Assembly: GCA_009783565.1 (NCBI GenBank)
Contig: WRDF01000005.1
Span: 62,001-126,000, forward strand
Source: Rikenellaceae bacterium
Lineage (GTDB): Bacteria; Bacteroidota; Bacteroidia; Bacteroidales; Rikenellaceae
Direction of reading: 5' to 3'
DNA length: 64,000 nt
Both the position numbers and the translations under genes were made by a program. Within the stretch, counting starts at the first letter, position 1, and the number at the start of each line of letters is the position of its first letter. The notes beneath the pieces were generated by a model that was given only the letters and a program-made list of their open reading frames with translations, did not search any database and was not told the origin of the DNA. Shown here in pieces: positions 19,450 through 47,146 of this stretch.

Positions 19450-20583
19450 TTAATTCTCCTGCGCTTTGTTAGCCTCATAGGATTTTTTATATTCCGCCAA
19501 ACAACTTCTGTAATAATTCAACCGGCCCGGATCGGTTTCATATCTTACTGCCGTTTCATGCAATTCTACCAGCATTTTCCTTCTGGCCTGTCTTTCTTCC
19601 GGAGTCAATGTTGCATGATCTTTAAACGTAATGGGTAAATGGACATTCAGGTAAACGAATTCCGTCATGTTCTGAGTGTCCAAGCCGGACATCAGATTAA
19701 TGGAATTATCCGATAAACCCGCATAATTTTTCTGCCTTATATTGTCGAAATTATTCTCGACCAGATCCGAAAATGCCGTTTTGTACAGAGGGTTCAAGTC
19801 GATCCTGTCAAGGTCTTTCCGCAGGTTATCGAATGTCTCCGGAGCATCCGTATCCAACCTTCGGAGTATACTGCTAAGCTGCCTGTTGGAAATGGCGGCA
19901 ATAAAATCAGTGTACTCTTTTTCACCCATGACTCCGGATACTTCCCGCCGATGATTCAGCATATAGACTATAATGAGCGACTCCGTGTTCCTGATATTGC
20001 TGTTATACAGTTCCATGTTCTCATTGGAGAATTTCTCATCTAAACTCTTCGAATCGAAATATTTGTATAGAGCATCGCGGGCCTTATCGGGCCTGCCGAC
20101 ATCATTGGCATATTTAATATATTCCGGGACGTAGGATACGGATACTAATTTCGCGTCCATGTATGCCCAGCTGTTTTCAAGTTTCAGCGCATTTTCGGTT
20201 TTTGCGATAAAGTCTTGGATGCCCCGCGAGCCGCCGACATATCTAGAATATTCCTCTCCGTTCCCGTCGATAAAGATAAATGTAGGGAGTGCCGAGACAT
20301 GATGATCTCTTACCAGATTTTCCGGATCGGCCACGTCGACATTATATTTCACTACGACCAGTCTTTCGTTGATGTAGTCTCCTGCCTCTTCGGTGGGAAA
20401 TACATCTCTTGCAAGCATCTGACATGGCCCGCACCAAGTGGCACAAACGATTATCATTACTTTCTTGTCGGTCGCCTTAGCCTGCGCGACGGCTTCTTTG
20501 AGCGAAATATCCTGAATATTCACCTGGCCCATTGCCGTGAGTGAACAAAATATCGCTATGATGAATAAAATCGACTTCCTCAT
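19450..20583 (-). CDS. secreted thioredoxin-family protein with long helical C-terminus
   Basis: 377 residues. Signal peptide 1-19 (ending in AMGQ), thioredoxin domain about 25-135 with CATWCGPC (C51, C54) and a cis-proline in ALPTFIFIDGNG, then about 240 mostly helical residues without a known domain. It is clearly related to two other proteins in this window (36882-37955 and both halves of 52445-53926): all share a KA-rich first helix, xxxxxFTxEEAGDYxN after the active site and PTFxxxDGxGE. It is the last gene of the first Sus-linked locus, 13 bases after the DsbD-domain protein gene. Its likely role is reducing or isomerising disulfides in the periplasm, with the partner proteins of that locus as possible substrates. 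Confidence 0.85.
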   Translation of the reverse strand: MRKSILFIIAIFCSLTAMGQVNIQDISLKEAVAQAKATDKKVMIIVCATWCGPCQMLARDVFPTEEAGDYINERLVVVKYNVDVADPENLVRDHHVSALPTFIFIDGNGEEYSRYVGGSRGIQDFIAKTENALKLENSWAYMDAKLVSVSYVPEYIKYANDVGRPDKARDALYKYFDSKSLDEKFSNENMELYNSNIRNTESLIIVYMLNHRREVSGVMGEKEYTDFIAAISNRQLSSILRRLDTDAPETFDNLRKDLDRIDLNPLYKTAFSDLVENNFDNIRQKNYAGLSDNSINLMSGLDTQNMTEFVYLNVHLPITFKDHATLTPEERQARRKMLVELHETAVRYETDPGRLNYYRSCLAEYKKSYEANKAQEN

Positions 20584-20596
20584 GCTTAAAAATATT

Positions 20597-22531
20597 TTAG
20601 CGACTGCTTCTTACCAAAGTGGTTCTCAGGCTGATAACTCTTTCCTCAGGCGGGAAGCATATCTGCGGGTCGCAACACTGGTATGAATATTTGATTACGA
20701 TATCCCCTGCTCCGACTCCTTCTATTGGCCTCACGAAGATGAATTCGCCATCCCATATCGTCGTGCCGGAACTGTTGTAATATTGCTCAGGAGGAGATAT
20801 CAGATTTCCGGTAAATCTGTATCCTTCGGGCAGCGTAATATCTATTTCCGTCGTGGTATACGGGTCTTCTTCTGAGACATATCCGTAAATATGATAGCCG
20901 GGATGAACCGCAAATTTTATGACGATCAACTGCTCTCCGCTGCACATGGTCGCAAGGCCTGCCCCCGCAGCCACCGGATTCCTGTGGTCGGTTCTGTTCA
21001 GCATTATGGCCTTCGATGCCGTATGGATTGCCTTGGCCCTGTAATCATTACCCTGAACGTCGGGGTCGAGAGTATTCACCATAAAATACCAGCCGCCGCT
21101 TTGGGAGAAGAATATCCGGGATTTGTTCGCCTCGTACCAATTCCGCCATTCTTTCGCCGTTTCGAATGTGCAAAGGGTGTATCTGTCGAGTATCCTGCGG
21201 GCCTTGTCCGCATCCTCGTTATTTTCGAGCATCGATATGGCCTTGTCCAGCAATCTTATATCGGTGTTAGGTATGCCCAGACTTTTGACATCTTCGTCGA
21301 CGATAAGTTTATAGAACATCGCAGCCCCATACAGATATGGAAAATTATCAAGATAGAATTTATGGTATTCCTCCGGGTCAGTTCCATATATATCGAACTT
21401 CTCTGCCGGCCTGAAACCGCGTCTGAGATAATCCTCAAAGGCCTGCGGCGCAGGCCGTCTGTAATTCAACATGATTGCCTCCCTTCCTACAAGAGGTTCT
21501 CCTCTGGCCTGTTTTTCAAGAGCCACTCTTTGCATAGCTTCATTTCCGGTGGCAACTTTATCGGCCAGTGTAAGTCCGTATTCGTAACCTTCACGGGAGG
21601 TAGAGTGGATGATCTCCTTTACGTATTCTTTCGTAGCCGCACGTTCGTAGAATTTCCGCGCGATGACTTCCTTGCCTTTCAGTGTCGAAGTATAGACCAC
21701 AGCATTTGCAAAGACCTGTTTCGCTTCGTCGGTCATGAAACCGGGCGAAGCCGAAAATCCCCAATAAAAATAGTTGCCGTGCCTGCCTATGGCCACCGCA
21801 TCGAGGGTTTTTTCGCACGTGCCGCTCGATATGAACTCACTGTCGGGAGAGTCGAGGAATCCCCAGGGCCGCGCGACCATTCCGATCCTGGCTCCCTGTA
21901 CTCCTCCCCTTAAAAAATGCTGCACTCTCCACATCGGCACGGTGTCCGGTATCGGGCCATCGTGATAATACGGGTAATTATATACCGCCTCTGGCGTGGG
22001 TTCTTCCGTTATCGTTACAGTCACCGGGAAAGGGCCTTTGAATATATGGTGATTCAGGTCGAAGTTGAGAGCATGATCCCACATGCAAAGGCAATACCAG
22101 TCCGTTTTCAGTCCTATTCCACTGCCCAGTCTCGAACCCATATCCGCCAATAACATAGCCGGATAAGCGAAACCGTCCGAAAGGTATCTCGCACTGTAAT
22201 AATTGACCTGATTCCCGTCACTGTCCAGTTCCTCTTTTATTTCTGCCGTCCGTTTTATCAGGCCGTCGAATATGGTCACGTCATATCCCGCCGACATATC
22301 CTCCGTGTAGTCCGCTCCCTGAACGACCGTGACGTGGGTAAAATATTGATTCAGATATTGCTCGAAGTCAGCCGTCCTTTGTATGGCGCTTTCGGCCTGT
22401 CTCTCGGCAGAAGCAGCGCTGCTCAAATTCGATGAACCCCCGACATACAATATCCTGAGGTTCTGTTTCGTCTGGCCGGAAACTTGCAACGAAACGATCG
22501 CAAACAGCGCCAGTAATAGATACTTTTTCAT
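20597..22531 (-). CDS. large secreted protein with DsbD alpha-like C-terminal domain
   Basis: 644 residues. Signal peptide 1-19. Residues about 24-190 begin LRILYVGGSSNLSS and include YDVTIFDGLI and LNHHIFKGPFPVTV, which resemble a ThuA/class-I glutamine-amidotransferase-like Rossmann domain without an evident catalytic triad. A helical middle (about 290-510) is unassigned. Residues about 530-644 read as the N-terminal DsbD domain: HPGYHIYGYV, PEGYRFTG and YQCCDPQICFPPEE, where C619 and C625 match the spacing of the DsbD alpha reactive pair and C620 is extra. DsbD alpha normally hands electrons to periplasmic oxidoreductases. Here it is fused to an unrelated domain and followed by a thioredoxin gene. 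It is a tandem paralogue of the next gene upstream. Confidence 0.65.
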   Translation of the reverse strand: MKKYLLLALFAIVSLQVSGQTKQNLRILYVGGSSNLSSAASAERQAESAIQRTADFEQYLNQYFTHVTVVQGADYTEDMSAGYDVTIFDGLIKRTAEIKEELDSDGNQVNYYSARYLSDGFAYPAMLLADMGSRLGSGIGLKTDWYCLCMWDHALNFDLNHHIFKGPFPVTVTITEEPTPEAVYNYPYYHDGPIPDTVPMWRVQHFLRGGVQGARIGMVARPWGFLDSPDSEFISSGTCEKTLDAVAIGRHGNYFYWGFSASPGFMTDEAKQVFANAVVYTSTLKGKEVIARKFYERAATKEYVKEIIHSTSREGYEYGLTLADKVATGNEAMQRVALEKQARGEPLVGREAIMLNYRRPAPQAFEDYLRRGFRPAEKFDIYGTDPEEYHKFYLDNFPYLYGAAMFYKLIVDEDVKSLGIPNTDIRLLDKAISMLENNEDADKARRILDRYTLCTFETAKEWRNWYEANKSRIFFSQSGGWYFMVNTLDPDVQGNDYRAKAIHTASKAIMLNRTDHRNPVAAGAGLATMCSGEQLIVIKFAVHPGYHIYGYVSEEDPYTTTEIDITLPEGYRFTGNLISPPEQYYNSSGTTIWDGEFIFVRPIEGVGAGDIVIKYSYQCCDPQICFPPEERVISLRTTLVRSSR

Positions 22532-22560
22532 GATATTTCTATTTTATCGATTGATCGGTG

Positions 22561-24069
22561 TTATTCGGCCCTGCGGGCTGCCTTAGCCCTGTAATTATTG
22601 CCCGGCTCATTGGGATCGAGCGTGTTCACCATAAAATACCAGCCGCCGCTTTCGGTGAAGAATATCCGGGATTTGTTCGCCTCGAACCAGTCACGCCACT
22701 CTTTCGCCGTTTCGAATGTGCAGAGGGTGTATCTGTCGAGTATCCTGCGGGCCTTTGCCACATCCTCGTTCCTTTCGAGCATGGATATGGCCTTGTCCAG
22801 CAGTCTTATGTCGTTGTTCGGGATGCCCAGACTCTTGACATCCTCATCGACGATAAAGTCATAGAATATCAGAGAACCTGCGTACAGATAGGGTAAGTTA
22901 TCGGTGTAAAATCTGCTATACCCCTCCATGTCGTTACCCCATCTCTCGAATTTATCTCCCAACGCTCTTCTGAGAAAATCCTCATAAGTCTGAACCGGAG
23001 GCCGTCGATAACCTATAATAGATCGTTCTCTTCCTACAAGAGGTTCTCCTCTGGCCTGTTTTTCAAGAGCTACCTTGAGTATAGCTTCATTACTGTCAGC
23101 AACCGCAGCGGCTCTGGCTATCTCCACATTGTAATGATCTCTGGTGGCGAAATACAACATCTCGTCCACGTATTCTTTCGTAGCGACCCTGTCGTGATAT
23201 TTTCTTGCAATAACTCTCTCCCCTTTCAGCGTCGAAGTATATACCACGGCATTTGCAAAGACCTGTCTCGCTTCATCGGTCATAAAGGGTGGGGAAGCTG
23301 AAAATCCCCAGTGAAAATAATTGCCGTGCCGTCCTATTGCAACTGCCAAAGGGCTTTTTTCGCACGTGCCGCTCGATATGAACTCACTGTCGGGGGAGTC
23401 CGTGAATCCCAACCACCTTGAAACCAATCCGATCCTGTTTCCCGACCCCTGTTGTCCTTCTAACCTTAAAAAATGCTGCACTCTCCACATGGGCATCGTA
23501 TCGGGGACATTGCGGTTTGGGAAGTAGGTTACGTAAATGCTTGCCGCATCGGGCGTAGGTTGATGTTCAACGGTTATCCGTACAGGGAACGGGCCTGCAA
23601 ATATCTGGTGATTCAGGTCGAAGTTGAGAGCATGATCCCAAAGACAAAGACAATAATGGTCGAATTTAAGGCCTATCGGAACTCCTAACAGAGGGCTCGT
23701 GTCCGCCAACATCATAGCCGGATTAGCGAAATCTTCCGAAAGATATTGTGCATCTCTGCCTGATCCGGATATCGGGGTTATCGCACCGTCGAATATGGTG
23801 ACATCGTAACGGGCTGACATATTCTCCGTGTAGTCTTTCCCCTGAACAACTCCGACATGGGTAAAATATTCATTCAGATACGCCTCGAACGCGGCCGTTC
23901 TTTGTCTGGCGCTTTCGGCAGTTCTCTCGGTCTCGGCAGCAGAACTACCGCGACCGCCGCCCAAATTTGCTGAACCACCGACGTACAATACCCTGAGGTT
24001 TTGTTTTTCATGTGCGAAAACCTGCGACGAAACGAGCGCAAATAATGCCAAGACTAGTATTTTTTTCAT
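22561..24069 (-). CDS. paralogue of the DsbD-domain protein, C-terminal domain absent
   Basis: 502 residues. Signal peptide 1-19, then the same ThuA-like region (LRVLYVGGSANLGG, YDVTIFDGAI, LNHQIFAGPFPVRI) and helical middle as the 644-residue neighbour, with long identical stretches such as KARRILDRYTLCTFETAKEW. Homology runs to NTLDP and YRAKA, then this copy stops after AARRAE, so it lacks the whole DsbD alpha domain. Only 29 bases separate the two genes. Base-level similarity continues up to the stop (gccctg...ccttagccctgtaattattgcc), which points to a tandem duplication followed by C-terminal loss in this copy or domain gain in the other. Function unknown. Confidence 0.7.
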   Translation of the reverse strand: MKKILVLALFALVSSQVFAHEKQNLRVLYVGGSANLGGGRGSSAAETERTAESARQRTAAFEAYLNEYFTHVGVVQGKDYTENMSARYDVTIFDGAITPISGSGRDAQYLSEDFANPAMMLADTSPLLGVPIGLKFDHYCLCLWDHALNFDLNHQIFAGPFPVRITVEHQPTPDAASIYVTYFPNRNVPDTMPMWRVQHFLRLEGQQGSGNRIGLVSRWLGFTDSPDSEFISSGTCEKSPLAVAIGRHGNYFHWGFSASPPFMTDEARQVFANAVVYTSTLKGERVIARKYHDRVATKEYVDEMLYFATRDHYNVEIARAAAVADSNEAILKVALEKQARGEPLVGRERSIIGYRRPPVQTYEDFLRRALGDKFERWGNDMEGYSRFYTDNLPYLYAGSLIFYDFIVDEDVKSLGIPNNDIRLLDKAISMLERNEDVAKARRILDRYTLCTFETAKEWRDWFEANKSRIFFTESGGWYFMVNTLDPNEPGNNYRAKAARRAE

Positions 24070-24156: not shown

Positions 24157-25233
24157 TTATCTTCCGAGAAGTCTCTCTAATTTCTCATCCAATTCTTCGC
24201 CCTTTATGTTTTTTGCGATAATGATGCCGTTCGGATCAAGCAACACCGAGTGCGGAAGGCTCGAAACATTATAACGTATTGCACCTTCGCTTCGGATATA
24301 TTTCAAATCCGACATTTGCGGCCAGTCAGGCATGTTCAGTTCTTTCATACCGTTAGCCCATGTCTCATGATCTCTGTCGAACCAAATGCCGACAATATTA
24401 AACCCTTTGTCTTTGAATCTGTTATAAGTTGCGATCATGTCCGGTTTTTGCGCACGACACGGGCCGCACCAAACAGCTGTAAAATCAAGGAGTACATAGT
24501 CGCCTTTTCCGGCAAAATCGGAAATGGCAATTTCTTTCCCGTTGACATCGGGCATCCGAAGATCAACGAACCGTTGTCCGATAGCCGTTTGTTCTATTGC
24601 CTGAACGTAGTCTACAATTCTTACCACTTCGGGCACTCGCAAGGTTGCAGGGGTTGCATGGGCGATGATTTCTTTCAGCTGTTCAATCGGCAGACTACTC
24701 CTTAGATTATTCAATTGACTCTGACCGGCGGGATTGTTGATGTTGTTTTTTGCAAATTCTATTCTGAGTTCTTGCAGTTCATCGACGTATTTGCGAGACT
24801 CTTCCTCAGATGATGATGCTCTTCTTTTCCGTTGAAGAATTAGTTCGGCATCCAAAAACGCTTGAAGAATGTCATTGTTTTTTGTTCCTGAAACTCTGCT
24901 GTCCCCTTCTGCATCAGTGGTTATGTTGATTCTTGCATTTTCAAGAATCACGTTGTGATGCAGAGGAGAAGACATCCGCCCTGTTCGGGGATCGGCCAGA
25001 TTCAACCGGACATTAGTAGGTGCTTTGACAGAGCCCGTAAACGTATAGGTTCCATCAACAATCAGGGCTGAATCCATTGTGAGCATTTGTCCATCTATGA
25101 ATTGGATCATTCTGACTTGTGCACCCTCCATTTCATGGTTGGCTACGGTGCCGGTAATGGTGAAGGTGGTTTCTTGTTGTTTGCAAGCAAAAAATGTCAA
25201 TGCTGCAACAGCGATAATCAAGATATTTTTCAT
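24157..25233 (-). CDS. DUF4369-TlpA thioredoxin lipoprotein
   Basis: 358 residues. Lipobox FFAC puts the lipidated cysteine at 17. Residues 22-110 are a beta-rich DUF4369 domain (FTITGTVANHEMEGAQV, GTYTFTGSV). A helical linker follows, then a TlpA-type thioredoxin from about 222 with WCGPC (C256, C259) and HSVLLDPNGIII. This two-domain form is common in Bacteroidota. It should be tethered to a membrane facing the periplasm and act as a thiol reductant. It lies in the first Sus-linked locus between the PKD-like lipoprotein and the tandem paralogues, after a perfect hairpin. Confidence 0.88.
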   Translation of the reverse strand: MKNILIIAVAALTFFACKQQETTFTITGTVANHEMEGAQVRMIQFIDGQMLTMDSALIVDGTYTFTGSVKAPTNVRLNLADPRTGRMSSPLHHNVILENARINITTDAEGDSRVSGTKNNDILQAFLDAELILQRKRRASSSEEESRKYVDELQELRIEFAKNNINNPAGQSQLNNLRSSLPIEQLKEIIAHATPATLRVPEVVRIVDYVQAIEQTAIGQRFVDLRMPDVNGKEIAISDFAGKGDYVLLDFTAVWCGPCRAQKPDMIATYNRFKDKGFNIVGIWFDRDHETWANGMKELNMPDWPQMSDLKYIRSEGAIRYNVSSLPHSVLLDPNGIIIAKNIKGEELDEKLERLLGR

Positions 25234-25320: not shown

Positions 25321-27000
25321 TTAGATGAAGACAATGTCTTTGATAGCGCCGAATTTCCGGCCGTCCGCACTGACGGTATGCCGCTGAACTGTCGGGAAAC
25401 CGCCGTGCATTCCTTCTTCGGCTCTGCCTGCGCTGTTGAGAACCAACACTACCAGTTCACCGCTGCCGTCAGGCATATTGTACGCTATCCCCAGAGTACG
25501 ATCCAGAGGGAATATTGCATCCGGATAATTCGACCCGATATCTCTGTTAGAAGAAGTATCATCGGCAAATTTAAGTGCTATTGGCGTTGCTCCTGGATCA
25601 GGATGCTGCCAGATCAACGTTGGCTGCGATTCCGCCAAAGCAAAATCGAGCCTGTATATTTTGTTGTCGATAGCATAGAACAATATACGATTGTATTCTA
25701 TACTGCTGGCCATAAGTGTATTTCCATCGACTCCGGCGGGAGTATCGATAACGTAATATTCGGTGAACGGAGCAGGGTCCGAATTATCGCCGACAGTAAG
25801 CATCGGACGTGAGTGGAACACGAATATATGAGATTTCGGTGTGTCACGATTGACGGCGTAAGCATACATCGTATAGCGCTGCCAGGGTGCAGTGTTGTTA
25901 AATCCCAGGTAATGTCCCGATCCCATATACACCATCTGCTTATCGGACCCTATATTATTAGGATCGATCGACTGATTGTTCAAAGGAGTATTTCGTATCC
26001 TCTCTATTCTACCACGCGTCATATCGGGAATTCCCGACCAACCGACCCATGTAGTGTTGTCGCGCGTGTAGAGTTGAAGGAAACGGTTGTTAAGTCCGTC
26101 AAATAACAGATAGCTTTGTGACACCATAGCTATATGTGAAATGTAGAAGTCAGGGCTATCTTCGGCTGCGGCATTATCAAGTACAGCTCTGCCCATCGCT
26201 CCCGAATTATTTGCTCCCTGAAACACATATCCGTTACTGGCGATAACTCCTCCCCCTATCATACGGCGACAACCGTATATTTTTGCGGGGTCGAATGAAG
26301 CCAAATCCACAGGGAACATACGCTGAGTATTTGCCACGAGCCTGAAATTATCATCCTGTGCAAGCATCCCGCTCTCTTCCGGATTGGAAGTAAACGCAAA
26401 AAATGCAGTGAGCGAACTGTTGCCCTGTTTAGGACTATAAGCATGAAATACTCCGAGGCTGTAACCGGTGCCGGAGAGCCTGTGTCCCGTTTTGGAGTAA
26501 TAAGCATCGTTATCGATCACCATGTCATTGCCGAGGTATTCCAACGAAGCTATACGAGAAATGCCTTCCTGGTGGTGGAGTATCATCCATGCGCCTTCAT
26601 ACGGTTTCGCGATACGCAATTCGGTAAAGAACATTTGCTCGATTCCTGTCAGCACGTCGGTAATATACAACCTGAAAAAGCGGTTATATCTGAAATTGGC
26701 TTCCGCAGGATCGATCACTATATTTATATGATCGTCAGTACCGAACTCCGTACCTTTCTCGTTGGGGTTATCGCTGACAAACCAGGCGAAACTAAGGTTA
26801 TCGGTTCCTGTGTAGCGAGACTGTTCGATAGTGGGTGTGATCGTGAACGTCTGGGCTTCCATACGTGTTCCATAAACACTTCTCATCACGACATTAATAT
26901 CATTTACCGAATAGTCGTAGTCGTAATTCCCCTTGTCTTCGTAACAGGAGAATGCCAACATTGTGATCACGGATAACACAAATATTTGTTTTGCATTCAT
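25321..27000 (-). CDS. PKD-like family lipoprotein
   Basis: 559 residues. The signal ends at a cysteine (LAFSCYEDKGNYDYDY, C19); CYxDKGNYDY is the recognisable opening of the PKD-like lipoproteins that accompany some SusCD pairs. An Ig/PKD-type domain of about 120 residues (VVMRSVYG to LRIAKPYEG) is followed by a large beta-rich domain likely to be a propeller (repeats such as ESQPTLIWQHPD). No catalytic motif is seen. It should sit on the outer membrane surface beside SusD and help bind the imported ligand. Counterpart in the second locus: 37982-39562. Confidence 0.8.
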   Translation of the reverse strand: MNAKQIFVLSVITMLAFSCYEDKGNYDYDYSVNDINVVMRSVYGTRMEAQTFTITPTIEQSRYTGTDNLSFAWFVSDNPNEKGTEFGTDDHINIVIDPAEANFRYNRFFRLYITDVLTGIEQMFFTELRIAKPYEGAWMILHHQEGISRIASLEYLGNDMVIDNDAYYSKTGHRLSGTGYSLGVFHAYSPKQGNSSLTAFFAFTSNPEESGMLAQDDNFRLVANTQRMFPVDLASFDPAKIYGCRRMIGGGVIASNGYVFQGANNSGAMGRAVLDNAAAEDSPDFYISHIAMVSQSYLLFDGLNNRFLQLYTRDNTTWVGWSGIPDMTRGRIERIRNTPLNNQSIDPNNIGSDKQMVYMGSGHYLGFNNTAPWQRYTMYAYAVNRDTPKSHIFVFHSRPMLTVGDNSDPAPFTEYYVIDTPAGVDGNTLMASSIEYNRILFYAIDNKIYRLDFALAESQPTLIWQHPDPGATPIALKFADDTSSNRDIGSNYPDAIFPLDRTLGIAYNMPDGSGELVVLVLNSAGRAEEGMHGGFPTVQRHTVSADGRKFGAIKDIVFI

Positions 27001-27044: not shown

Positions 27045-27821
27045 TTAAGGCCGGAATACAACCGGATTCCCATTTTCATCCGTCAGCGGATTACCCGGAT
27101 TATCTCTGTTATAGCGGAACAAAGCGTCTTCGAGATCGCCTATCACATAGCTTGGCCAGACCCCGCCGCGTCTGACATCGGCGACGTAATCCGGCAGCCC
27201 GTTAGGATACCAGCGTCTCAGGGTTGCATCGTTACCCACCATGAAACGTACTTTTATAGACGACGGTGCGCCGATCAGAGGCGCCAGCCATTCGTTATAT
27301 GTATCGAGCGTGATTTTGAGATACTTGTCCGTTCCCCATTCATAAATAAAGCTGTCGTCAGCGGTTATCGTGAATTTACTGCGCTCCATTATGCCCGGTT
27401 CCAGACCGGACGCTTCATAGTCGATAACAATATTGCCTCTGAAAGTTACCCCGCCATTCGCCGGACGGTTAATCCGAAAATACAGTTTAGCGGTATAGCT
27501 GTTAGCCGGAATCACCGGATCGCTTATAAATACGACATCCGGAGAGGCGAACCCTTCGACCGGTTCGATATCGAGCTTAACCGTCAGGTCTTTTGAAATA
27601 GCCATGCCCTGAATACGCACCTCGACACTGTCGAGAATGGAAGGGTTGTAAACAGAAGTGAAATCGTAGGCTTTTGCAAACGTGTTATTCTCATCGCCGC
27701 CAACAGATACGAATACAACCCGCGTAGCTTCGTTATACCTGAATACTTCCTCTTCCGTACATCCGGCTATAACCAGCGGCAGGAAAGCAAACAGCGCGAT
27801 TTTTACAAATATATTTTTCAT
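27045..27821 (-). CDS. DUF4843-family lipoprotein
   Basis: 258 residues. Signal with IAGC gives a lipid anchor at C21. ATRVVFVSVGGDENN and the regular alternation of beta strands match the DUF4843 type, which in this phylum is found between SusD and PKD-like genes. The C-terminal part (KYLKITLDTYNEWLAP, SYVIGDLEDALFRYNRDNP) is typical of the family's second half. It begins 14 bases after the SusD stop. Inferred role: accessory surface lipoprotein of the uptake complex. Confidence 0.78.
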   Translation of the reverse strand: MKNIFVKIALFAFLPLVIAGCTEEEVFRYNEATRVVFVSVGGDENNTFAKAYDFTSVYNPSILDSVEVRIQGMAISKDLTVKLDIEPVEGFASPDVVFISDPVIPANSYTAKLYFRINRPANGGVTFRGNIVIDYEASGLEPGIMERSKFTITADDSFIYEWGTDKYLKITLDTYNEWLAPLIGAPSSIKVRFMVGNDATLRRWYPNGLPDYVADVRRGGVWPSYVIGDLEDALFRYNRDNPGNPLTDENGNPVVFRP

Positions 27822-35443: not shown

Positions 35444-35497
35444 CATCAGATTCAAATATAAACGAAAAATATCTATATTTGCGCAAAACATTCTGCT

Positions 35498-37981: not shown

Positions 37982-39562
37982 TTACATTGATTTCAGATTA
38001 ACGTCATAAATGCGTCCAAAACCGGTGAACGTTCTATGCGACTCGGCTTGCCCCGTCATGTTATCGATCATTATTGCATGGAGTGTACCGACGCCATTTT
38101 CGTAAGTACCTACAAGCATCATTCTGTTGGCGCGATGATAAGCAGATATGCCTGTAAATACAGGAGACTTTAGAATCTTCATCATTGTAATTTCTCCGGT
38201 GAACGGAACCTGTTCAGCGCCCACCATCAGTTTCCGTGCGTCGCTCGTCCCGCTTTCCCGCAGTACGGCATACTGATAAACAGCCGTGCTTGTGGCATAG
38301 TAGCAAGTACTGCTGTTCGCACCGACTGCGTGGAATTTTGCCGATTCAAATTCCGGAAGCCGCGATATATTGTATTTGGCAACCGCGAAAGCGTTTGCGT
38401 CTGACGTATTTGCTGCATTGAAATTGATTTCGCCAAGAAATATGGTCCCATCATCTTCCTGGAATACGCCAAGATGATTACCACTCGCACCTATTCCGAT
38501 GTTGTCGAGATAGAGCAAATCCGCCTGCATATTTGCCGGATTGAACGGTCCCCAGCCGGCAGAATTAATGATAGTGGGGGCGACCTCGCCAACAGTTGTA
38601 AGACTGGCACGTATAAAACCTCTTGTGTTCTCGTCGAAAATCAAGCCCTGCAGATTCTGATTCACTATAAAACTGTGTTTTGAGGCTTTTAGGTTCGGCC
38701 TTCCGGTAAAAACTTTTGGTATAGAGAATCTGGAATTCGCTAAGCCGGTTGAAACAAATAAAACACCGTCATCTATAACGCATCTGTTGTTGTTGTTGTA
38801 GAATTGGATTTTTTGCAGATTGCCATTATTCAAGGAAGGCGAAGTTGGAGTTGAATAGAACAAATCCATATAATCGCCTTTTTTCACCATACCTTCCGCT
38901 CCTGCAAACAGCGCTGCCTGATCAGTTCTTATAAAAATATTGCACGTTTCGATTGGTACTACTCCGCCAGTCATGTGCTGCTGTATTATAAAAACTCCCC
39001 TGCCCGGTATTTTTGCTCCGTTGACAGAAGAATAACTGTTATAGACAATTCTTTCCTCGATCTGAGCATTGGCACTTACAAGGAAATGGCGGTCCATGAT
39101 AATTCCTATATCGCTTTCGGTATCGTTGCCGTGCAGCACCATAAGACCCAGATCACCGCCGCTGATAGTAATGGTAATCAGCGAAGAGTACATGCTATGG
39201 GTATGGCCGTCAATCTCCCTCGATACTCTAAGCCTGACACTATAACTCCCGAATGTAGGGAAATAATTATCAGGTCTTATAATGAAGTCGAAATCCCTAC
39301 CCTCGCCGAATTCTCTAAACCGGCTGTTTTCATCGAATATTTCCCACATGTACTTCAGTTCGGATTCGGGAACATCGGAAGTAACCGTTACGGGAATTAT
39401 GAGATGCTGACCCATTTGAACCAGATATGTGTGAATACCTGATGAAACAGTAACGACAACATTCCCGATATCGGTGTAGTCGTAGTTGCCCTTGTCTTTA
39501 TAGCAGCCGGTTGAGCCAAATGTCATAGCTGCCAAAATCATATAACAAAATATCTTTTTCAT
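37982..39562 (-). CDS. PKD-like family lipoprotein (locus 2)
   Basis: 526 residues from the ATG at 39562; an in-frame TTG three codons earlier is less likely. Lipobox STGC (C20) followed by YKDKGNYDYTD, the family opening. A PKD-like domain follows (ESELKYMWEIFDENS), then a beta-rich region. It has the same position as the PKD-like gene in locus 1, but the large domain differs enough to suggest different ligands. Starts 14 bases downstream of the DUF4843 gene. Confidence 0.8.
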   Translation of the reverse strand: MKKIFCYMILAAMTFGSTGCYKDKGNYDYTDIGNVVVTVSSGIHTYLVQMGQHLIIPVTVTSDVPESELKYMWEIFDENSRFREFGEGRDFDFIIRPDNYFPTFGSYSVRLRVSREIDGHTHSMYSSLITITISGGDLGLMVLHGNDTESDIGIIMDRHFLVSANAQIEERIVYNSYSSVNGAKIPGRGVFIIQQHMTGGVVPIETCNIFIRTDQAALFAGAEGMVKKGDYMDLFYSTPTSPSLNNGNLQKIQFYNNNNRCVIDDGVLFVSTGLANSRFSIPKVFTGRPNLKASKHSFIVNQNLQGLIFDENTRGFIRASLTTVGEVAPTIINSAGWGPFNPANMQADLLYLDNIGIGASGNHLGVFQEDDGTIFLGEINFNAANTSDANAFAVAKYNISRLPEFESAKFHAVGANSSTCYYATSTAVYQYAVLRESGTSDARKLMVGAEQVPFTGEITMMKILKSPVFTGISAYHRANRMMLVGTYENGVGTLHAIMIDNMTGQAESHRTFTGFGRIYDVNLKSM

Positions 39563-39576
39563 CTTGATCAAAGTTT

Positions 39577-40293
39577 TTAATATCCTGGTAAAAATCGCAC
39601 TTCAGTACCGTCATCCGGATACCTGATATCATGTTCCTCGCAATAGTTATTCAGTAACAACCGATATAGATTCCATGCGACAGTGTCGGCGCGGGGATTT
39701 TCCATACTTCCGAGAACTATTTGGAGTATCTGCATCTTGATTACATGGTATCTGCCAAAATAGAACTCCGACATAGCATCTGTACCCCACCAACTTGGCC
39801 TCTCTATACCATTGTAAAACGTGATGTGGCGCGTAGAGGCTACGTTTTCCATATTTCTGTTGTAGAGCGCCATATCTGCGATTAAATCGTTAGAGCCTTT
39901 CAACTTGATGGTTATCGTATCGCGATCCGTATCTAAATTCGGCGTCCGCCACAATCTGATCTCTATATTGGCAGTACTCTCATTGGCTTTCAATATGGAA
40001 GGCTGGATAATCTCGTATCTTGTCTGGGAATGCCCTGCATTTTTCAATACCTCTACATAAAATACACGGTCGTGGCCGACAAGATTGCCGGCGAGATTAA
40101 CCTCAACAGTGAAAATTGCCGATTCCACCGTGGGATCGGGTAGCGTGGCAAATCCGAAGCGCGATATATCGGTAGAATTTACAAAATATACGCAGTCGGT
40201 CGGCTCCCAGGTCATAACTTTTTCCGTTTGACATGCAGACAGTAGCGTCGCTACGGAAAGAGCCGTTAAAATTCCTTTAATCGTTGTTTTCAT
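39577..40293 (-). CDS. DUF4843-family lipoprotein (locus 2)
   Basis: 238 residues from the ATG at 40293 (MKTTIKGIL); another in-frame ATG four codons earlier at 40305 is also possible. Lipobox LSAC (C21). TDCVYFVNSTDISRFG and a beta-sandwich pattern, then a conserved-type C-terminal WGTDAMSEFYFGRYHVIKM. Positioned directly after the susD stop. Accessory surface protein by analogy with locus 1. Confidence 0.75.
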   Translation of the reverse strand: MKTTIKGILTALSVATLLSACQTEKVMTWEPTDCVYFVNSTDISRFGFATLPDPTVESAIFTVEVNLAGNLVGHDRVFYVEVLKNAGHSQTRYEIIQPSILKANESTANIEIRLWRTPNLDTDRDTITIKLKGSNDLIADMALYNRNMENVASTRHITFYNGIERPSWWGTDAMSEFYFGRYHVIKMQILQIVLGSMENPRADTVAWNLYRLLLNNYCEEHDIRYPDDGTEVRFLPGY

Positions 40294-40305
40294 ATTCGTT
40301 TGCAT

Positions 40306-41793
40306 TTATAGTTCACGGTTTCCATAGAGGATTTCATTTTCCGGATATGGGAATATATATGCCTCCAATCCTCTGTTGAACGTCATATTGGTAATGGCAG
40401 GGGATTGCTGTCGCTTATACCAAAACCACAACTGTCCTTCGCCTGTAAATTCCTTGCGGTACTCCGTGTATATCTCATTGAGCAGTGTTTGCTGGTTGTT
40501 CACATTGGTTAACGGCATGGTGGTATATCCGCGCTGGCGGCGTACGATTTCGAGGTATTCCAAACCATCCTCCCAATTGTCTGCACATTCCGCTACAATG
40601 TAATACATCTCCGAAATGCGGATCAGCGGCATACGGTATTTGAAATGGGAAGAAACCATGGCGGGTTGGTAAAATTTGGAAAGCATAAACTCGTTGGCGG
40701 AATGCATGGTGTACATATACCTGAACCTCGGGTCAACTCCCTGGTCATTTGTGGCGAACATATTCCGCATTGATGTCAGTCTTAGATTAGTTCCATCGCT
40801 TACCGGTATGTTATTCAGGAAACCTGATATCAGGTTATCCATATTCATTACATTGAGTGCAAAAATATGCTCCGTGGCAAAAGTCCTGTCCTGGTTAGTT
40901 CCCGATCCGAGTTCGATAGAAGTAAGGTTGGTTGTAAGTACCCATGGGAATCGGGTTGGCTGGTCGTCAATTACTTCGAGTGCCGTTCTCAGGGCATTTT
41001 CTTTATCGCCTTTCCAGAGATATACCCTTGCCAGCGTCGCTTTTGCCGCATAATAATTAAAGTGGAAGCGGCGGTTGTGCCATGCACTTATGTTACCAGA
41101 AGTACTTGATGCCAATACATGTGGGGGCGTGGTACCCAAGCGCATCGGATCGTTTTCGAGTAGCCTCACAGCCTCTTCGAGTTGGGATATAATAACACTC
41201 ATCATCTCTTCGCCGGTAAGCAGGGGCGTTACGAGTGGTGTCAGTTTTACGACATAAGGCAGTATTTCCTGATCTTTACTCTTTTCATATACATCGGCAA
41301 ACATGCGGTAGAGCTCGAAATGGAGGAAAGCACGCAGGCCGATAGCTTCGCCTTTGATTACAGAATAATTATCTTCAGTGAAAAGATACCTGTTGTCATC
41401 TATGTTTTCAAGTATTGAGTTGATGCCTGCAATAACATTATAGAGCCCCGACCAGAATTGCTCCAGCATTCTGACAGCATCAGTGCTTACAGAAGAGCCA
41501 CCTGATTCAACGTATGCATATTCTTTTATACCGTTGTACATTGCGGGAAGAGTGAGGGCTGTGTAATTCCCTGCCAGTACGTCCATAGCGCCCCATGTCA
41601 TTTCACGGCCATAAAGAGAAGCGCGGCACATTCGTGCATAAATACCTGCAATGGCTTCGCCATACCCCTTTTCGGAAGAGAGAAGTTCCTCCCTGTCTAA
41701 CTGTGTAGAGGGTTTCACATCAAGCCAGTCGCTGCACGAGACGAAGGTTAGCGTCGCCGTGAAACAAATCAGTAAAGAAATATGTTTCTTCAT
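40306..41793 (-). CDS. SusD/RagB-type surface lipoprotein (locus 2)
   Basis: 495 residues. Lipobox FVSC (C20) then SDWLDVKPSTQLDREEL. GYGEAIAGIYARMCRASLYG, KGEAIGLRAFLHFELYRMF and YRKEFTGEGQLWFWYKRQQ are standard SusD features and align with the locus 1 SusD. It lies 20 bases after the SusC stop. Confidence 0.95.
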   Translation of the reverse strand: MKKHISLLICFTATLTFVSCSDWLDVKPSTQLDREELLSSEKGYGEAIAGIYARMCRASLYGREMTWGAMDVLAGNYTALTLPAMYNGIKEYAYVESGGSSVSTDAVRMLEQFWSGLYNVIAGINSILENIDDNRYLFTEDNYSVIKGEAIGLRAFLHFELYRMFADVYEKSKDQEILPYVVKLTPLVTPLLTGEEMMSVIISQLEEAVRLLENDPMRLGTTPPHVLASSTSGNISAWHNRRFHFNYYAAKATLARVYLWKGDKENALRTALEVIDDQPTRFPWVLTTNLTSIELGSGTNQDRTFATEHIFALNVMNMDNLISGFLNNIPVSDGTNLRLTSMRNMFATNDQGVDPRFRYMYTMHSANEFMLSKFYQPAMVSSHFKYRMPLIRISEMYYIVAECADNWEDGLEYLEIVRRQRGYTTMPLTNVNNQQTLLNEIYTEYRKEFTGEGQLWFWYKRQQSPAITNMTFNRGLEAYIFPYPENEILYGNREL

Positions 41794-41813: not shown

Positions 41814-44800
41814 TTAAAATGTGGCTTGCAACGAAAACGAGAAGTTGCGCGCAAAAGGATAGCTTGTGCCTCTTTCGATCTCGATGGACGAAAAACGGAA
41901 AAGTTCGTTCATATAGAATTGAACCCTCAACCGCTCTATACCGACCTTCGTAAGCGCCCTGAGATTCCGGAAATCGTAACCCGCATTCACAGAAGAGATA
42001 TAAAGCTCATTGTCTTTCATTATGAAACGGGATGTTGGTCTGGTAGGTTGTCCACCGGTGAAAGCCATCTGGGAAATGTAAAGTCTGGTAAAAGACGCTG
42101 CTTCGCCGGGGTTATTCCAACTTTGCAGTATCCTGCGGTCAAGGTTGTGTTCGGCATAAACATTTTCAACTTTATCCACAAGCGTAGTGTTGTACCTGTC
42201 GCCGCCGAATTTGTAGCTTGCCGAAACCGCAAATGTGAAACCTTTGTAGCCTGCACTTAGGTTGATGTTGCCTCTAAGTGTAGGTGCGGTGTTGCCTATC
42301 ACGACCTGATTGAGCGCCGACCAGGCTCTGACTAAGTTACCGTCGAGGTCGTAAAATACCTCATCTCCCGTTATCGGATTAACGCCTGCCGAGCGCACAC
42401 CCCAGATTGCGGTCATAGACTGCCCTTCGTAGTAAAGCGTAGACGGGCGGGTATATTGTTTTCTGAGCTCATCGTTGATAATATAAGTGGCAGGGGCGGT
42501 TGCTGTTTTATCTGCATTTTGTGTATTGTTGCGATGTTCAAACGTGTCGGATATCTCTTTTATCCTGTTTCTATTGTGCATTCCGGAGACTGAGACTGTA
42601 AACCAGCCGCGCTTATTGGAATCACGCCACAATCGAAGCGCCAGATTTGTTTCGAATCCCCTGTTCTCAATTTTCCCGAGATTCTCCATGAAAGTAGAGA
42701 AACCTGTTGAGGGAGGAATGGCTACATTAATCAGCATGTCGTCAGTAATTCCTGTAAAATAGTCGAACGTGGCGGTTATCATACCATTAAGGAGCACGAA
42801 GTCAGTACCTATATTGTAGTCGAATACGCGCTGCCATTTAAGGTTATCGTTAGGCAGGCCAAGGATAAATGGGCCATATCTGCCGTCGTAAGTGTGCTCG
42901 GAGTATTCATATCTCGCCCTTGCCATATATGGGTCGAAATTCTGCGAACCCGTGTATCCGACTGAGCCACGAATCTTAAACCTGTCAAGCCACTCGACAT
43001 CCTTTGCAAAAGCCTCTTTATGAATGTTCCATCCGAGCCCCAACGACCAGAAAAGCCCCCATTTGTTATTGGCGCCAAACATTGAAGAGGCACTGGAACG
43101 CGTCGAAACGTCGAAAAGATAACGGTCGTCGAAAGAGTAGTTTAATGCCCCCACAACGCCTACCTCTCTACGGTTATTACTTGAACCGCTGGGACGAGAA
43201 CCGGTCAGCCATTGAGCGCCGAAAGATATATTATCGGCATTGTCGTTACCGAATCCTTCAGCGGTGAAACGATAACTTTCACTTTCCTGTGACGATATGT
43301 TCCATCTCGCATTGGCAAAGAACATGTGCTTGCCGAAAGATTTACTATAATTCACACCGAAGTCAGCCTGATAAGATGTGGACGCGCCGTACCCTTTTGT
43401 ATAACGCCCTTTGCGGTTACTGTCTCTCTCGTCGTAATTTATAAACATACTGTGACTCGCCGGATAAAAAAGATCCGATTCGTTTGTATGGTTTGTATAA
43501 TTGAAACGGCCGATGAGCCTGAGGGTTGATAAAACTTTCCATTCCGCCTGGAAGTTGTTGCGCAATTCTTTATACGATGAAGAGTTTTTCCCGTTTAGCG
43601 TAGCGTTGTAGAGCGGGTTATGTCTCGTATTGCCATGCCACCCCCGATAGGTCATTATCAGATTACCATCATCATCATACGGTGCCCAGTAGGGGTTCAG
43701 TCTCGTATATTCGTCAAAAGTGCCGTAAGGTGAATTATTGGCATTATTATGCACAACCCCGAGTGAATTACGGAAAACCAAATTTTTATAGGTATATGCA
43801 AGGTTCACGTTACCGGAGAAAGTATTTCTGTCTGATCCTTTCATTACGCCGACAGTATTGTTGTAGCCGAGGCCGATACCGTAAAGCATCCGCTCATCGC
43901 CTCCTTCAAGATTGAACGAATGTTTATGGCCAATCCCTGTTTGCAACGGCTGGCTTAGCCAGTAGGTATCAACACCATTTAAAACATTACGCAGTAGTGC
44001 GTTGTATTCACGATCCAATGCCTGCTGCACGATGGGGGTTCCGCTATTTCCGGTACCGATATACACACCGCGCGATCTCTCAAATTCGAGTTTTTCGGCA
44101 GCGTTCATAAGGTTGTAACCCGTCAGGTCGGGAGCCTCTATATCAAGCGAACCAGAATAAGAAACCCTCAGCCTTCCGGGCGTGGGACGTATTGTAGTGA
44201 TAACCACAACTCCGTTACCGGCCTTGGAGCCGTAGATAGCCTTCGCCGCGGCATCTTTGAGGATAGTGATGCTCTCCACGCGGTTCATATCGAGGTCAAA
44301 TATCATTTGAAGCGAGGCTTCGAAACCGTCGAGAATAAAGAGCGGCTGGTTGGGGTTGCCCGAATACTCACCCTGCAAATCGGCGAAAGAACTTTGGCCG
44401 CGCAGCATTATTTCAGGCATCCGGTTGGGGTCCGAGCCGAATTCGAGGCTTTCCATTATCATAAACGAAGGGTCGAGATTGGAAAGGCTGCGCAGTACAT
44501 TCTGGTTGCCGACCGTCAATAACTCCTCGCGCGTAAAAACTGACGATGATCCCGTAAAGCTCTCGGCACGGCGGTCGAACATACCGGTTACCACCACCTG
44601 CTGGATTTCTTCCACGCTGTCTTCCATGCGAACGTCGATCACCCGCTGGCCGGTATATGGTATTTCGACGCTCTTCCTGCCGAGGTAAGAGTATACCAGT
44701 ACGTCGCCCTGCCAGGCCGTTATCGTATATCTGCCGTCTGCTCCGGTTATCGTACCCCTGCCCGAGTTCTTAACGGCGACGGTAACGCCGGCAAGAGGTT

Positions 44801-45239
44801 GTCCGGCCATCCCACAGACGATGGTGCCGCTTACAGTAGTGGGGGGAGTAGCCTGAGCAGGCTGCTGCCCGACCAACGCCCTGCTTATCGCAACAGATTG
44901 TCCCTGAATAGAATATTCAAAGCCGTTTTTCACAAGCACCGCATCGAGAATGGTTTCCATAGACGCATCATTGAGTTGTACAGACACCCGCTGACCTGGG
45001 GATATTACGCCTTCCCGATAAACAAACAGATATCCGGTGCGGGCTCTCAGATCTTCCAATACGGAAATTATCGTACTGTTCTCGTAGTTCACGTCCAACT
45101 TGGCTTGCTGCGAAAACGACGGGTTAGCATACACCTGTACGGTACAGCATAGTAGTAAAACAAACTTGATTTTCATCACCAAAGGGATTTTACGCCATTT
45201 CCCGGATTGGGAATGACGCATCTTGTAGATTTTTTTCAT
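41814..45239 (-). CDS. SusC/RagA-type TonB-dependent transporter with STN domain (locus 2)
   Basis: 1141 residues from the ATG at 45239, the same length as the locus 1 SusC; an upstream in-frame start would add a non-conserved stretch. STN domain about 48-120 (LEDLRARTGYLFVYREGVIS, LVKNGFEYSI), carboxypeptidase-regulatory-like domain about 135-207 (GQPLAGVTVAVKNSGRGTIT), plug opening VVVTGMFDRRAESFTG, barrel ending FARNFSFSLQATF. The plug openings of both SusC proteins share FDRR-x2-SFTGSS, so they are paralogues. Confidence 0.95.
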   Translation of the reverse strand: MKKIYKMRHSQSGKWRKIPLVMKIKFVLLLCCTVQVYANPSFSQQAKLDVNYENSTIISVLEDLRARTGYLFVYREGVISPGQRVSVQLNDASMETILDAVLVKNGFEYSIQGQSVAISRALVGQQPAQATPPTTVSGTIVCGMAGQPLAGVTVAVKNSGRGTITGADGRYTITAWQGDVLVYSYLGRKSVEIPYTGQRVIDVRMEDSVEEIQQVVVTGMFDRRAESFTGSSSVFTREELLTVGNQNVLRSLSNLDPSFMIMESLEFGSDPNRMPEIMLRGQSSFADLQGEYSGNPNQPLFILDGFEASLQMIFDLDMNRVESITILKDAAAKAIYGSKAGNGVVVITTIRPTPGRLRVSYSGSLDIEAPDLTGYNLMNAAEKLEFERSRGVYIGTGNSGTPIVQQALDREYNALLRNVLNGVDTYWLSQPLQTGIGHKHSFNLEGGDERMLYGIGLGYNNTVGVMKGSDRNTFSGNVNLAYTYKNLVFRNSLGVVHNNANNSPYGTFDEYTRLNPYWAPYDDDGNLIMTYRGWHGNTRHNPLYNATLNGKNSSSYKELRNNFQAEWKVLSTLRLIGRFNYTNHTNESDLFYPASHSMFINYDERDSNRKGRYTKGYGASTSYQADFGVNYSKSFGKHMFFANARWNISSQESESYRFTAEGFGNDNADNISFGAQWLTGSRPSGSSNNRREVGVVGALNYSFDDRYLFDVSTRSSASSMFGANNKWGLFWSLGLGWNIHKEAFAKDVEWLDRFKIRGSVGYTGSQNFDPYMARARYEYSEHTYDGRYGPFILGLPNDNLKWQRVFDYNIGTDFVLLNGMITATFDYFTGITDDMLINVAIPPSTGFSTFMENLGKIENRGFETNLALRLWRDSNKRGWFTVSVSGMHNRNRIKEISDTFEHRNNTQNADKTATAPATYIINDELRKQYTRPSTLYYEGQSMTAIWGVRSAGVNPITGDEVFYDLDGNLVRAWSALNQVVIGNTAPTLRGNINLSAGYKGFTFAVSASYKFGGDRYNTTLVDKVENVYAEHNLDRRILQSWNNPGEAASFTRLYISQMAFTGGQPTRPTSRFIMKDNELYISSVNAGYDFRNLRALTKVGIERLRVQFYMNELFRFSSIEIERGTSYPFARNFSFSLQATF

Positions 45240-45330
45240 ACTTTTGAAATGGATTTGTAGTTTAACGTCTGGTGCTAACAGACAAATTGCAATTTCAGGT
45301 GGGGGAATTGACCGTTCCTCCACTTTTTGT

Positions 45331-46497
45331 TTAGTTTTTCTCGACTTTTATTTTCCCATATTTATTCAGTTGAAATTGGACATTTCCCGCTTTACTAAGA
45401 GTAGACAACATCGTTTCAAAAGTTTCATCGGCGTACATACCACCTATAAACTTCATATCAGCTATGTCACTGTTACCGGCAAGATCAAACTCGACATCGA
45501 ATATGCGGGATATTTTCGCAAGAATTTGTTCAAAAGAAATGCCGTCGAAGCTGATCTCCCCGTCTTTCCATGAAGCGAAGTTCCGGGCATTCACATTCCT
45601 GATTGCGAAATTTCCCGAATCCGGATCGAATCTAGATTGCTGGCCCGGCCTGAGAATCGCTTCTTCGTGAAGATGGGCTATCTGTACTTTCACACTCCCC
45701 GAAACCAGTGTCGTAACAGTGTTTTCATCCGGATAAGTGCTCACATTGAACTGTGTGCCCAAAACGATAGCGGATTGCGATCCCGACTCCACGATAAAAG
45801 GTTTATTATCATCCTTTACGACATCAAAAAACGCCTCCCCCACAAGGCGTACCCGCCTTTCGTCGCCTGTGAAACTCAAAGGATATTCCAAACGGCTGTC
45901 CAAATTGAGCCAGACGGTGCTGCCATCGGCAAATGTAACCCGTTGGACCTCAGACCCGCGCGGTACGATCAACCTATTATAAATGAGTTCTGTTCCTGCA
46001 ACATCGTTATTCAGGTAGAATACTTCGTTGTTCTCCAACAACAACTGCGTGCCGTCTTTCTCAACGAGCTGTGCTCCCGATTGCCACATCACATACCGAG
46101 AGCCATCAGACAATTCAAGGATCGGCATATTATCCGCCCGGGCGATCGTGGATAAGTCATTGACGGGGCTATCGCCCCAATTTTGGAATAACAATACGGC
46201 TACAACAGCTACAGCCGCAGCCGAAACCGACGATGCCCATGCAACGATACGCCGCCGTTTGTTCCGGCTAATTATATTATTTATGGATTTCGCTGCTTCC
46301 TGCGGAGAATATTTCTCTGCTTCGACTATGTCTCGTAAAATGACTTTACCGTCTTTGATATTCTCATAAAACAATTTATTGCGTGGCGATTCGTCAATCC
46401 AACTGTTGAGCAGTCCGGATTCCTCGGACGAGATCGGGATATTCAGCGCGATCCGCGATAATATTTCGGATATTTCTGTCAATTTTATGAATGTCAT
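45331..46497 (-). CDS. FecR-type anti-sigma factor (locus 2)
   Basis: 388 residues. An N-terminal cytoplasmic helical part, basic KRRRIVAW before one membrane helix (about 87-105), FecR domain (PRGSEVQRVTFADGSTVWLN, GDERRVRLVGEAFFDV, VLGTQFNVSTY, LVSGSVKV) and C-terminal STN-like region (FEQILAKISRIFDVEFDL). Same place and strand relative to its sigma and susC genes as in locus 1. Confidence 0.93.
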   Translation of the reverse strand: MTFIKLTEISEILSRIALNIPISSEESGLLNSWIDESPRNKLFYENIKDGKVILRDIVEAEKYSPQEAAKSINNIISRNKRRRIVAWASSVSAAAVAVVAVLLFQNWGDSPVNDLSTIARADNMPILELSDGSRYVMWQSGAQLVEKDGTQLLLENNEVFYLNNDVAGTELIYNRLIVPRGSEVQRVTFADGSTVWLNLDSRLEYPLSFTGDERRVRLVGEAFFDVVKDDNKPFIVESGSQSAIVLGTQFNVSTYPDENTVTTLVSGSVKVQIAHLHEEAILRPGQQSRFDPDSGNFAIRNVNARNFASWKDGEISFDGISFEQILAKISRIFDVEFDLAGNSDIADMKFIGGMYADETFETMLSTLSKAGNVQFQLNKYGKIKVEKN

Positions 46498-46565
46498 AGC
46501 TGTTCTTAGTTTTTAATGTAGGTGTATGAGAAGGGGAAAAGTATATATCGTGAATGAAAAAATCC

Positions 46566-46573
46566 TACATTTG
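46566..46573 (+). promoter_or_regulatory. -7 box of the second ECF sigma gene
   Basis: TACATTTG matches TAnnTTTG and ends 30 bases before the ATG at 46604. No clear -33 TTG was found at the usual spacing. Confidence 0.4.
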
Positions 46574-46603
46574 CAGTAATACCCCACGTCAGATATCGGT
46601 ATA

Positions 46604-47146
46604 ATGGGCGATAAAGAACTGATGCATAATATCGTGCAAGGCGACAGGGAGGCATTCAACCTCTTGACGGTGAAATATTACCCTGCGCTGTTCATGTTTG
46701 CCGAAAGCATAATCCCGGGAAAAGATGCCGCGAAGGACATCGTCCAGGAGGCATTCGTATATCTGTGGGAAAAGCGTAAAAAGCTGACGGATGTTATATC
46801 TGTGAAAAATTATCTCTATACGGCGGTGCGTAACTATTGCTATATCCATCTGCGCAGTTCGAAACTACGCGCCAATTTGCCTGCCGGCAATATGACGGTC
46901 CAGGAGGAAGACATCCATTATAATTACGTGAGGGCCGAGACCATACGCCTGCTCTCTGCCGCTATCGATACCCTGCCATCCCGCACGGCCGAGGTAATCA
47001 GGCTGACCTTGGAGGGATTACGGCAGGAAAAGATCGCCGAGTCCATGAATATAACCGTCGCTACGGTAAAACTGCTCAAAGCTCGTGGAATTATCCGGCT
47101 TCGGGAGCTGTTAGGCTCGACTTACAACTGGCTTTTCATGCTTTAG
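46604..47146 (+). CDS. ECF-type RNA polymerase sigma factor (locus 2)
   Basis: 180 residues. Region 2: EAFNLLTVKYYPALFMFAES, KDAAKDIVQEAFVYLWEKR. Region 4: LPSRTAEVIRLTLEGLRQEK, MNITVATVKLLKARGI. Divergent from fecR. It belongs to the same family as the locus 1 sigma factor but is not a close copy. Confidence 0.94.
   Translation: MGDKELMHNIVQGDREAFNLLTVKYYPALFMFAESIIPGKDAAKDIVQEAFVYLWEKRKKLTDVISVKNYLYTAVRNYCYIHLRSSKLRANLPAGNMTVQEEDIHYNYVRAETIRLLSAAIDTLPSRTAEVIRLTLEGLRQEKIAESMNITVATVKLLKARGIIRLRELLGSTYNWLFML

Follow-up and report, generated by a model that had tools for sequence, protein, structure and literature searches.

A recurrent class of Bacteroidota SusCD loci with DUF4843 and PKD_2 lipoproteins and thioredoxins: candidate importers of peptide or protein cargo

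Pairs of SusC and SusD proteins are usually interpreted as sugar importers, and Sus-type polysaccharide utilisation loci combine this SusCD core with accessory surface lipoproteins. Published accounts describe the SusC homologs RagA and BT2264 as peptide carriers, the TonB-dependent SusC/SusD pairs RagAB (Porphyromonas gingivalis) and BT2263-2264 (Bacteroides thetaiotaomicron) carrying oligopeptides and not glycans (PMC7782687, PMC11817032). Here we describe two SusCD loci of a Rikenellaceae bacterium (assembly GCA_009783565.1, contig WRDF01000005.1, positions 62,001 to 126,000), and this whole stretch of 64,000 nucleotides, in which positions are counted from its first letter, is hereafter called the window. 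Both loci possess a TonB-dependent SusC/SusD pair, but they add DUF4843 and PKD_2 propeller lipoproteins and thioredoxins, which the accounts of RagAB and BT2263-2264 consulted here do not mention. They share the core and accessory surface lipoproteins of Sus-type loci but lack carbohydrate enzymes, have SusCs of a separate clade, and encode periplasmic redox proteins instead. No description of the DUF4843/PKD_2/thioredoxin gene order was found in the open literature searched. The class is recurrent, and we propose, at about an even chance of being right, that its window members are autoregulated importers of a presumed peptide or protein cargo whose disulfides would be reduced in the periplasm.

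The first locus is made up of the following genes:

33983..34537, plus strand (divergent): extracytoplasmic function (ECF) sigma factor; Sigma70_r2 and r4_2 above cut-off
32813..33889, minus strand: FecR anti-sigma factor; FecR and FecR_C above cut-off
29302..32727, minus strand: SusC of 1141 aa with an N-terminal STN-like domain; TIGR04056 548.7 bits against a cut-off of 368.25
27836..29287, minus strand: SusD lipoprotein; SusD-like_3 (PF14322) and SusD_RagB (PF07980) above cut-off
27045..27821, minus strand: predicted surface lipoprotein in the DUF4843 position, CTEEE after the lipobox; assigned from position, length, lipobox and paralog alignment
25321..27000, minus strand: PKD_2 lipoprotein; PF16407 100.2 bits against 39.2, C-terminal region aligning with the modelled beta-propeller of the second locus
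24157..25233, minus strand: TlpA/ResA-like lipoprotein with DUF4369 and VWCGPC; AhpC-TSA, Thioredoxin_8 and DUF4369 above cut-off
22561..24069, minus strand: secreted protein of 502 aa without DsbD_N; tandem paralog (66% identical) of the next
20597..22531, minus strand: secreted protein of 644 aa with C-terminal DsbD_N and QCCDPQICFPP; PF11412 29.3 bits against 25, C619-x5-C625
19450..20583, minus strand: predicted periplasmic thioredoxin, TWCGPC, with a C-terminal extension; Thioredoxin_7 and Thioredoxin above cut-off, signal peptidase I type N terminus

The genes of the second locus are:

46604..47146, plus strand (divergent): ECF sigma factor; Sigma70_r2 and r4_2
45331..46497, minus strand: FecR anti-sigma factor; FecR and FecR_C above cut-off
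41814..45239, minus strand: SusC of 1141 aa counted from Met29, with an STN-like domain; Plug, CarbopepD_reg_2 and STN, mechanically called GTG start at 45323
40306..41793, minus strand: SusD lipoprotein; SusD-like_3 (PF14322) and SusD_RagB (PF07980) above cut-off
39577..40305, minus strand: DUF4843 lipoprotein; PF16132 62 bits against 34.5
37982..39571, minus strand: predicted PKD_2 surface lipoprotein with an N-terminal PKD-like part and a C-terminal beta-propeller; PF16407 55.8 bits against 39.2
36882..37955, minus strand: predicted periplasmic thioredoxin, QGCGPC; Thioredoxin_7 31.3 bits against 27

A sequence-only reading of this DNA had described two parallel loci of the same order and strand plan, with SusCs of equal length and related thioredoxins at their ends, and had placed the end of the region at 46604, which is the start codon of the second ECF gene. 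Coordinates and family matches bear out the common order and strand plan, the terminal thioredoxins align at 27% identity (E 1.6e-22) and are thus related, and the SusCs are of equal length provided that the second starts at Met29, which aligns with a Met nearly invariant across the 19 SusCs of the genome. This SusC (G000:C5:103817-106837) scores 601.8 bits with TIGR04056 (cut-off 368.25). In agreement with that reading, none of the genes of either locus matched a family of glycoside hydrolases, lyases or sulfatases. PF16132 does not match the DUF4843-position protein of the first locus, several paralogs of which are PF16132 proteins. Gaps within each minus-strand run are 0-91 bp in the open reading frame table (second SusC from Met29), so that each run looks like a single transcription unit, from which the ECF gene points away. 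The divergent ECF sigma factor and a FecR with FecR_C, together with a putative STN-like domain on the transporter, recall FecI/FecR/FecA signalling, but here any such signalling would start from a SusC and not from a siderophore receptor. STN matches score 25.7 bits (E 9.6e-6) in the first SusC and 24.2 bits (E 2.8e-5) in the second against a Pfam cut-off of 28.4, and 18 of the 19 SusCs match this domain at E<=0.01.

How widespread is this arrangement? An alignment of SusCs, used in place of a 13-member PKD alignment that was too divergent as a genome-scan seed, retrieved at least 556 relatives from GTDB genomes. Among the best 80, which were read, a PKD_2-type gene lies behind SusC-SusD in 64, usually with DUF4843 between, and a TlpA or thioredoxin continues the run in 48 of 61 informative PKD-type relatives. 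By comparison, 40 high-scoring SusC control loci from 12 other Bacteroidia genomes contain one TlpA and no PKD gene (48/61 vs 1/40 for Trx/TlpA, Fisher p 1.4e-15); nearly all of these controls lack ECF/FecR, and the association is therefore one of the whole ECF/FecR/PKD class and not of PKD alone. The survey across genomes suggested by the sequence-only reading thus finds the SusCD-DUF4843-PKD-thioredoxin order recurring across Bacteroidota. PKD_2 was seen in only 2 of 198 sampled Bacteroidota genomes besides this one; five Butyricimonas and Odoribacter genomes, picked because they already held a match, have 25, 31, 31, 21 and 34 copies, the figure for Butyricimonas synergistica being 31.

A FastTree tree of 140 SusCs contains a split of support 1.0. 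On one side are 75 of the 77 PKD/DUF4843-labelled SusCs and 15 unlabelled ones, most of which come from contig ends or from loci with missed gene calls; on the other are the seven other SusCs of this genome and the whole control set of 40. Because the relatives were gathered by SusC similarity the tree favours such an outcome, but the SusCs of this genome are free of that bias, and all 12 of the PKD type fall inside the clade and the seven others outside. That PKD-type SusCs form one supported clade, and a real, recurrent SusCD class, is thus well supported. The tree and the Trx/TlpA association also support the earlier idea of a class apart from polysaccharide loci.

The genome (2.03 Mb, 92% complete) contains 19 full SusCs, 12 PKD_2 genes and 8 DUF4843 matches by profile searches, arranged in 12 complete PKD-type loci, a further one truncated where a contig ends (L020), and seven other SusCD loci; two of the 12 (L010, L012) were assigned by inspection, the caller of open reading frames having missed a gene. 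The window loci are therefore two members of a family of 12-13 and not a pair, and in this the reading of "two" loci does not hold. Identity between the two window SusCs is 39%, against 57% (L012) and 54% (L015) with SusCs of loci on other contigs. Each locus has a closer relative elsewhere in the genome than next door, which rules out a recent tandem duplication as the origin of their adjacency. The stretch between them (34780-36766, plus strand) encodes a 167-aa integrase fragment of the Arm-DNA-binding type and an ATPase matching AAA_14/DUF4143, which suggests mobile-element activity between the two loci in the past. An open frame of 499 aa that contains two Thioredoxin_7 domains (52541-53842, minus strand) lies about 5 kb past the second locus. 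A thioredoxin-fold gene is present in 9 of the 12 PKD-type loci and in 6 of the 7 other SusCD loci, and about 17 of the roughly 28 Thioredoxin_7/8 genes sit in SusCD runs, an enrichment of p ~3e-12 assuming 150 operon genes among 1750. In two loci of this genome (L023, L025) and three relatives (L039, L083, L101) the SusCD run goes on to encode an ABC ATPase together with large ABC-2 permeases (ABC_transp_aux), which resemble GldA/F/G in size and make-up; no Trx/TlpA was seen in the runs of L083, L101 and L025.

Where would the products of these loci act? Acidic residues after the lipid cysteine are a surface-export signal in B. thetaiotaomicron (PMC6222051). At least two of them occur at positions +2 to +6 in 65-78% of the SusD, DUF4843 and PKD lipoproteins and in 5% of the TlpA lipoproteins, and a lipobox was found in none of the TrxL proteins. 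The products are thus consistently predicted to split into a surface capture module (SusD, DUF4843, PKD) and a periplasmic redox module (TlpA, thioredoxin). Neither the DUF4843-position protein nor the PKD protein, nor profiles of the PKD_2 and DUF4843 families, led to a credible relative in the PDB, and homology of the lipoproteins to BT2261/BT2262 was not found by sequence, which is no proof of its absence. An AlphaFold2 model of the PKD_2 protein of the second locus (moderate confidence, mean pLDDT 75.6) forms a beta-propeller over residues 140-529, closest to BtuG1/BtuG2 (BtuG1 Z 23.5, rmsd 3.5, 299 residues aligned). Other propellers also reach Z 20, so that a predicted BtuG-like fold, and nothing beyond the fold, is claimed for the C-terminal part.

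This resemblance raises the prospect that a cofactor or metal complex is imported (a corrinoid, heme, siderophore or copper complex), with the propeller as a capture lid and the thioredoxin handling metal or exposed thiols. The plan of ECF sigma factor, FecR and STN is that of siderophore systems, and control would operate here as it does there. In B12 uptake by Bacteroides a surface beta-propeller lipoprotein likewise accompanies an outer-membrane TonB transporter, BtuG with BtuB (PMC10404256); the window loci differ in adding SusD and in an extra stretch at the N terminus of the PKD_2 protein. Heme use in P. gingivalis has been connected with HBP35, a protein with a thioredoxin domain (PMC2907840). 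However, the transporters are true SusC/SusD pairs and not small-ligand TonB receptors, the fold, shared with other propellers, shows no function, and copy numbers of up to 31-34 in a genome exceed what a single cofactor would need. We consider this import of a cofactor or metal complex quite improbable.

The redox module is most elaborate in the first locus, which combines a thioredoxin, a TlpA and the DsbD_N domain (C-x5-C) that ends the 644-aa secreted protein. In the window loci the cysteine motifs of thioredoxin, TlpA and DsbD_N are all intact, and CxxC is kept in 68 of 72 Trx/TlpA proteins. CxxC thioredoxin-fold proteins and DsbD_N with C-x5-C are shared with the DsbD and TlpA/ResA reductive pathways, but in the window DsbD_N forms the end of a secreted protein that is encoded in a nutrient locus. 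FG-GAP/DsbD_N proteins with C-x5-C also occur in Butyricimonas and Odoribacter relatives (L028, L030, L031), and the Rikenellaceae genome has a single DsbD transmembrane domain (DsbD_TM). In the same genome, the end of contig C15 (L148) carries a further FG-GAP/DsbD_N protein with C-x5-C, in which a FecR-like domain (E 4.5e-36) lies between the two parts. The end of C3 (L149) starts with a peptide stretch shared with that protein, followed by another DsbD_N and a TlpA, so that a break of the assembly at a repeated FG-GAP/DsbD_N gene is probable. The tandem paralog at 22561-24069 has lost DsbD_N or never had it. Fragments of a relative of the 20597-24069 paralogs in G202 (L152, L158) place the protein directly after a SusD gene, and a PHROGs search with both paralogs gave no matches. 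A model of the 644-aa protein (pLDDT 49.5) was not used, and a ThuA-like reading of its N terminus is an impression from the sequence.

On which proteins would these reductases act? Neither window SusC has a Cys in its plug or barrel, and the redox genes are thus unlikely to serve SusC or transporter maturation. The SusCs of relatives (L028-L107) have 0-7 Cys in this region, often at recurring spacings of 41, 106 and 233, whereas those of control loci are almost Cys-free, a difference that may be a lineage effect. Cys content as a marker of the class was rejected as stated, PKD and non-PKD SusCs of this genome not differing. The thioredoxins could instead be general envelope reductases co-regulated with nutrient systems, with roles in oxidative stress or in maturing the cysteines of the SusD, PKD and peptidase proteins of the locus rather than in treating cargo. 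Their presence in 6 of the 7 non-PKD loci of this genome fits such a role, as do the Cys of SusD and PKD proteins (medians of 4 and 5 beyond residue 60), but apart from the lipid anchor the positions of these Cys are mostly unconserved (best column 63% in SusD, 44% in PKD). The locus richest in redox genes, the first, has one Cys in its PKD protein and none besides the lipidated one in its DUF4843-position protein, and SusCD loci of other genomes rarely carry a thioredoxin (1/40). A role confined to the envelope is in our view unlikely.

Evidence on the cargo comes from sibling and related loci. Among PKD-type loci of this genome, L009 has an S46 peptidase and L014 two met-zincins, and a non-PKD locus (L022) has S8 and aspartyl proteases with a thioredoxin; related loci encode S46 (L089), S8 (L034) and HtrA-like (L054) proteases. 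Downstream of TlpA in relatives lie genes for a PatB-family C-S lyase (L038:18437-19591) and for an enzyme of SDH_alpha type that may be a cysteine desulfidase (L054:14215-15498), which together hint at sulfur amino acids. Glycosidases abound in the accessory genes of the control loci (101 proteins, about two dozen family matches), and no glycosidase was found in the scanned accessory genes of sibling loci of this genome. The peptidases, set against such controls, favour a peptide or protein cargo.

Several observations weigh against this proposal. No peptidase is encoded in either window locus, and only a handful of PKD-type loci have one. The occurrence of Trx/TlpA in non-PKD loci of this genome shows that the association is not specific to DUF4843/PKD, and 13 of the 61 PKD-type relatives lack Trx/TlpA in the run, so that reduction is not essential to the class. 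The nearest solved SusCs by sequence include a levan carrier (5t3r) as well as RagA, which leaves homology undecided between glycan and peptide. In two of the 61 relatives glycosidases do follow TlpA/Trx: a GH127 pair (L092:18643-23206) and a GH2 beta-galactosidase (L094:18547-21657). Carbohydrate enzymes in orthologous loci, which the sequence-only reading had held to speak against it, are thus present to a minor extent.

The levan carrier and these glycosidases would suit import of a glycan or glycopeptide, such as a host or plant glycoconjugate, with the enzymes encoded elsewhere and the thioredoxins only protecting envelope proteins. ECF/FecR-controlled SusCD loci are known in host-glycan use by Bacteroides. 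Both sets of glycosidases, however, stand behind gaps of 218-269 bp and are the only ones identified in the runs, although the Pfam tally of 45 unassigned accessory proteins covers the 25 commonest of 63 families and single further enzymes could be hidden there. This scarcity compared with the control loci, and the lack of glycosidases in the scanned sibling accessory genes, make glycan import rather unlikely.

Under the preferred proposal of peptide or protein import, each locus would be a separately regulated TonB-dependent SusCD importer of peptide or protein-derived cargo. The DUF4843 and PKD_2 surface lipoproteins may aid SusD in cargo capture, and SusC would carry the cargo across the outer membrane. 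Its STN domain would report cargo occupancy to FecR, freeing the ECF sigma factor and raising expression of the locus, an autoregulation presumed from the FecA/FecR/FecI type. In the periplasm the thioredoxin of the locus and/or TlpA would reduce cargo disulfides, after which peptidases could digest the cargo; some sister loci encode such peptidases, and in other cases they would be encoded elsewhere. Electrons would presumably come from the single DsbD of the genome, with the DsbD_N fusion of the first locus as a relay. Reduction before proteolysis would be the simplest job for the thioredoxins. The sequence-only reading had envisaged a protein, peptide or thiol/disulfide ligand reduced during uptake: peptidases in sibling and related loci lend the first part indirect support, a peptide, thiol compound or glycoconjugate all being candidate ligands, and periplasmic signal sequences and intact CxxC motifs fit the second.

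A wider generalisation is more tentative, and we regard it as somewhat doubtful: that these are phylum-wide reductive protein-utilisation loci, in which SusCD import would be coupled to cargo disulfide reduction through co-encoded periplasmic thioredoxins and DsbD_N fusions, and which would have expanded to ~20-34 copies in Butyricimonas and Odoribacter. If the clade does serve disulfide-containing peptides, many loci of gut and rumen Bacteroidota that are now annotated as polysaccharide loci would have to be reinterpreted, and a candidate uptake system would be at hand for amino-acid fermenters such as Butyricimonas and Odoribacter. The order SusC-SusD-DUF4843-PKD_2-TlpA/Trx provides a simple marker for picking strains.

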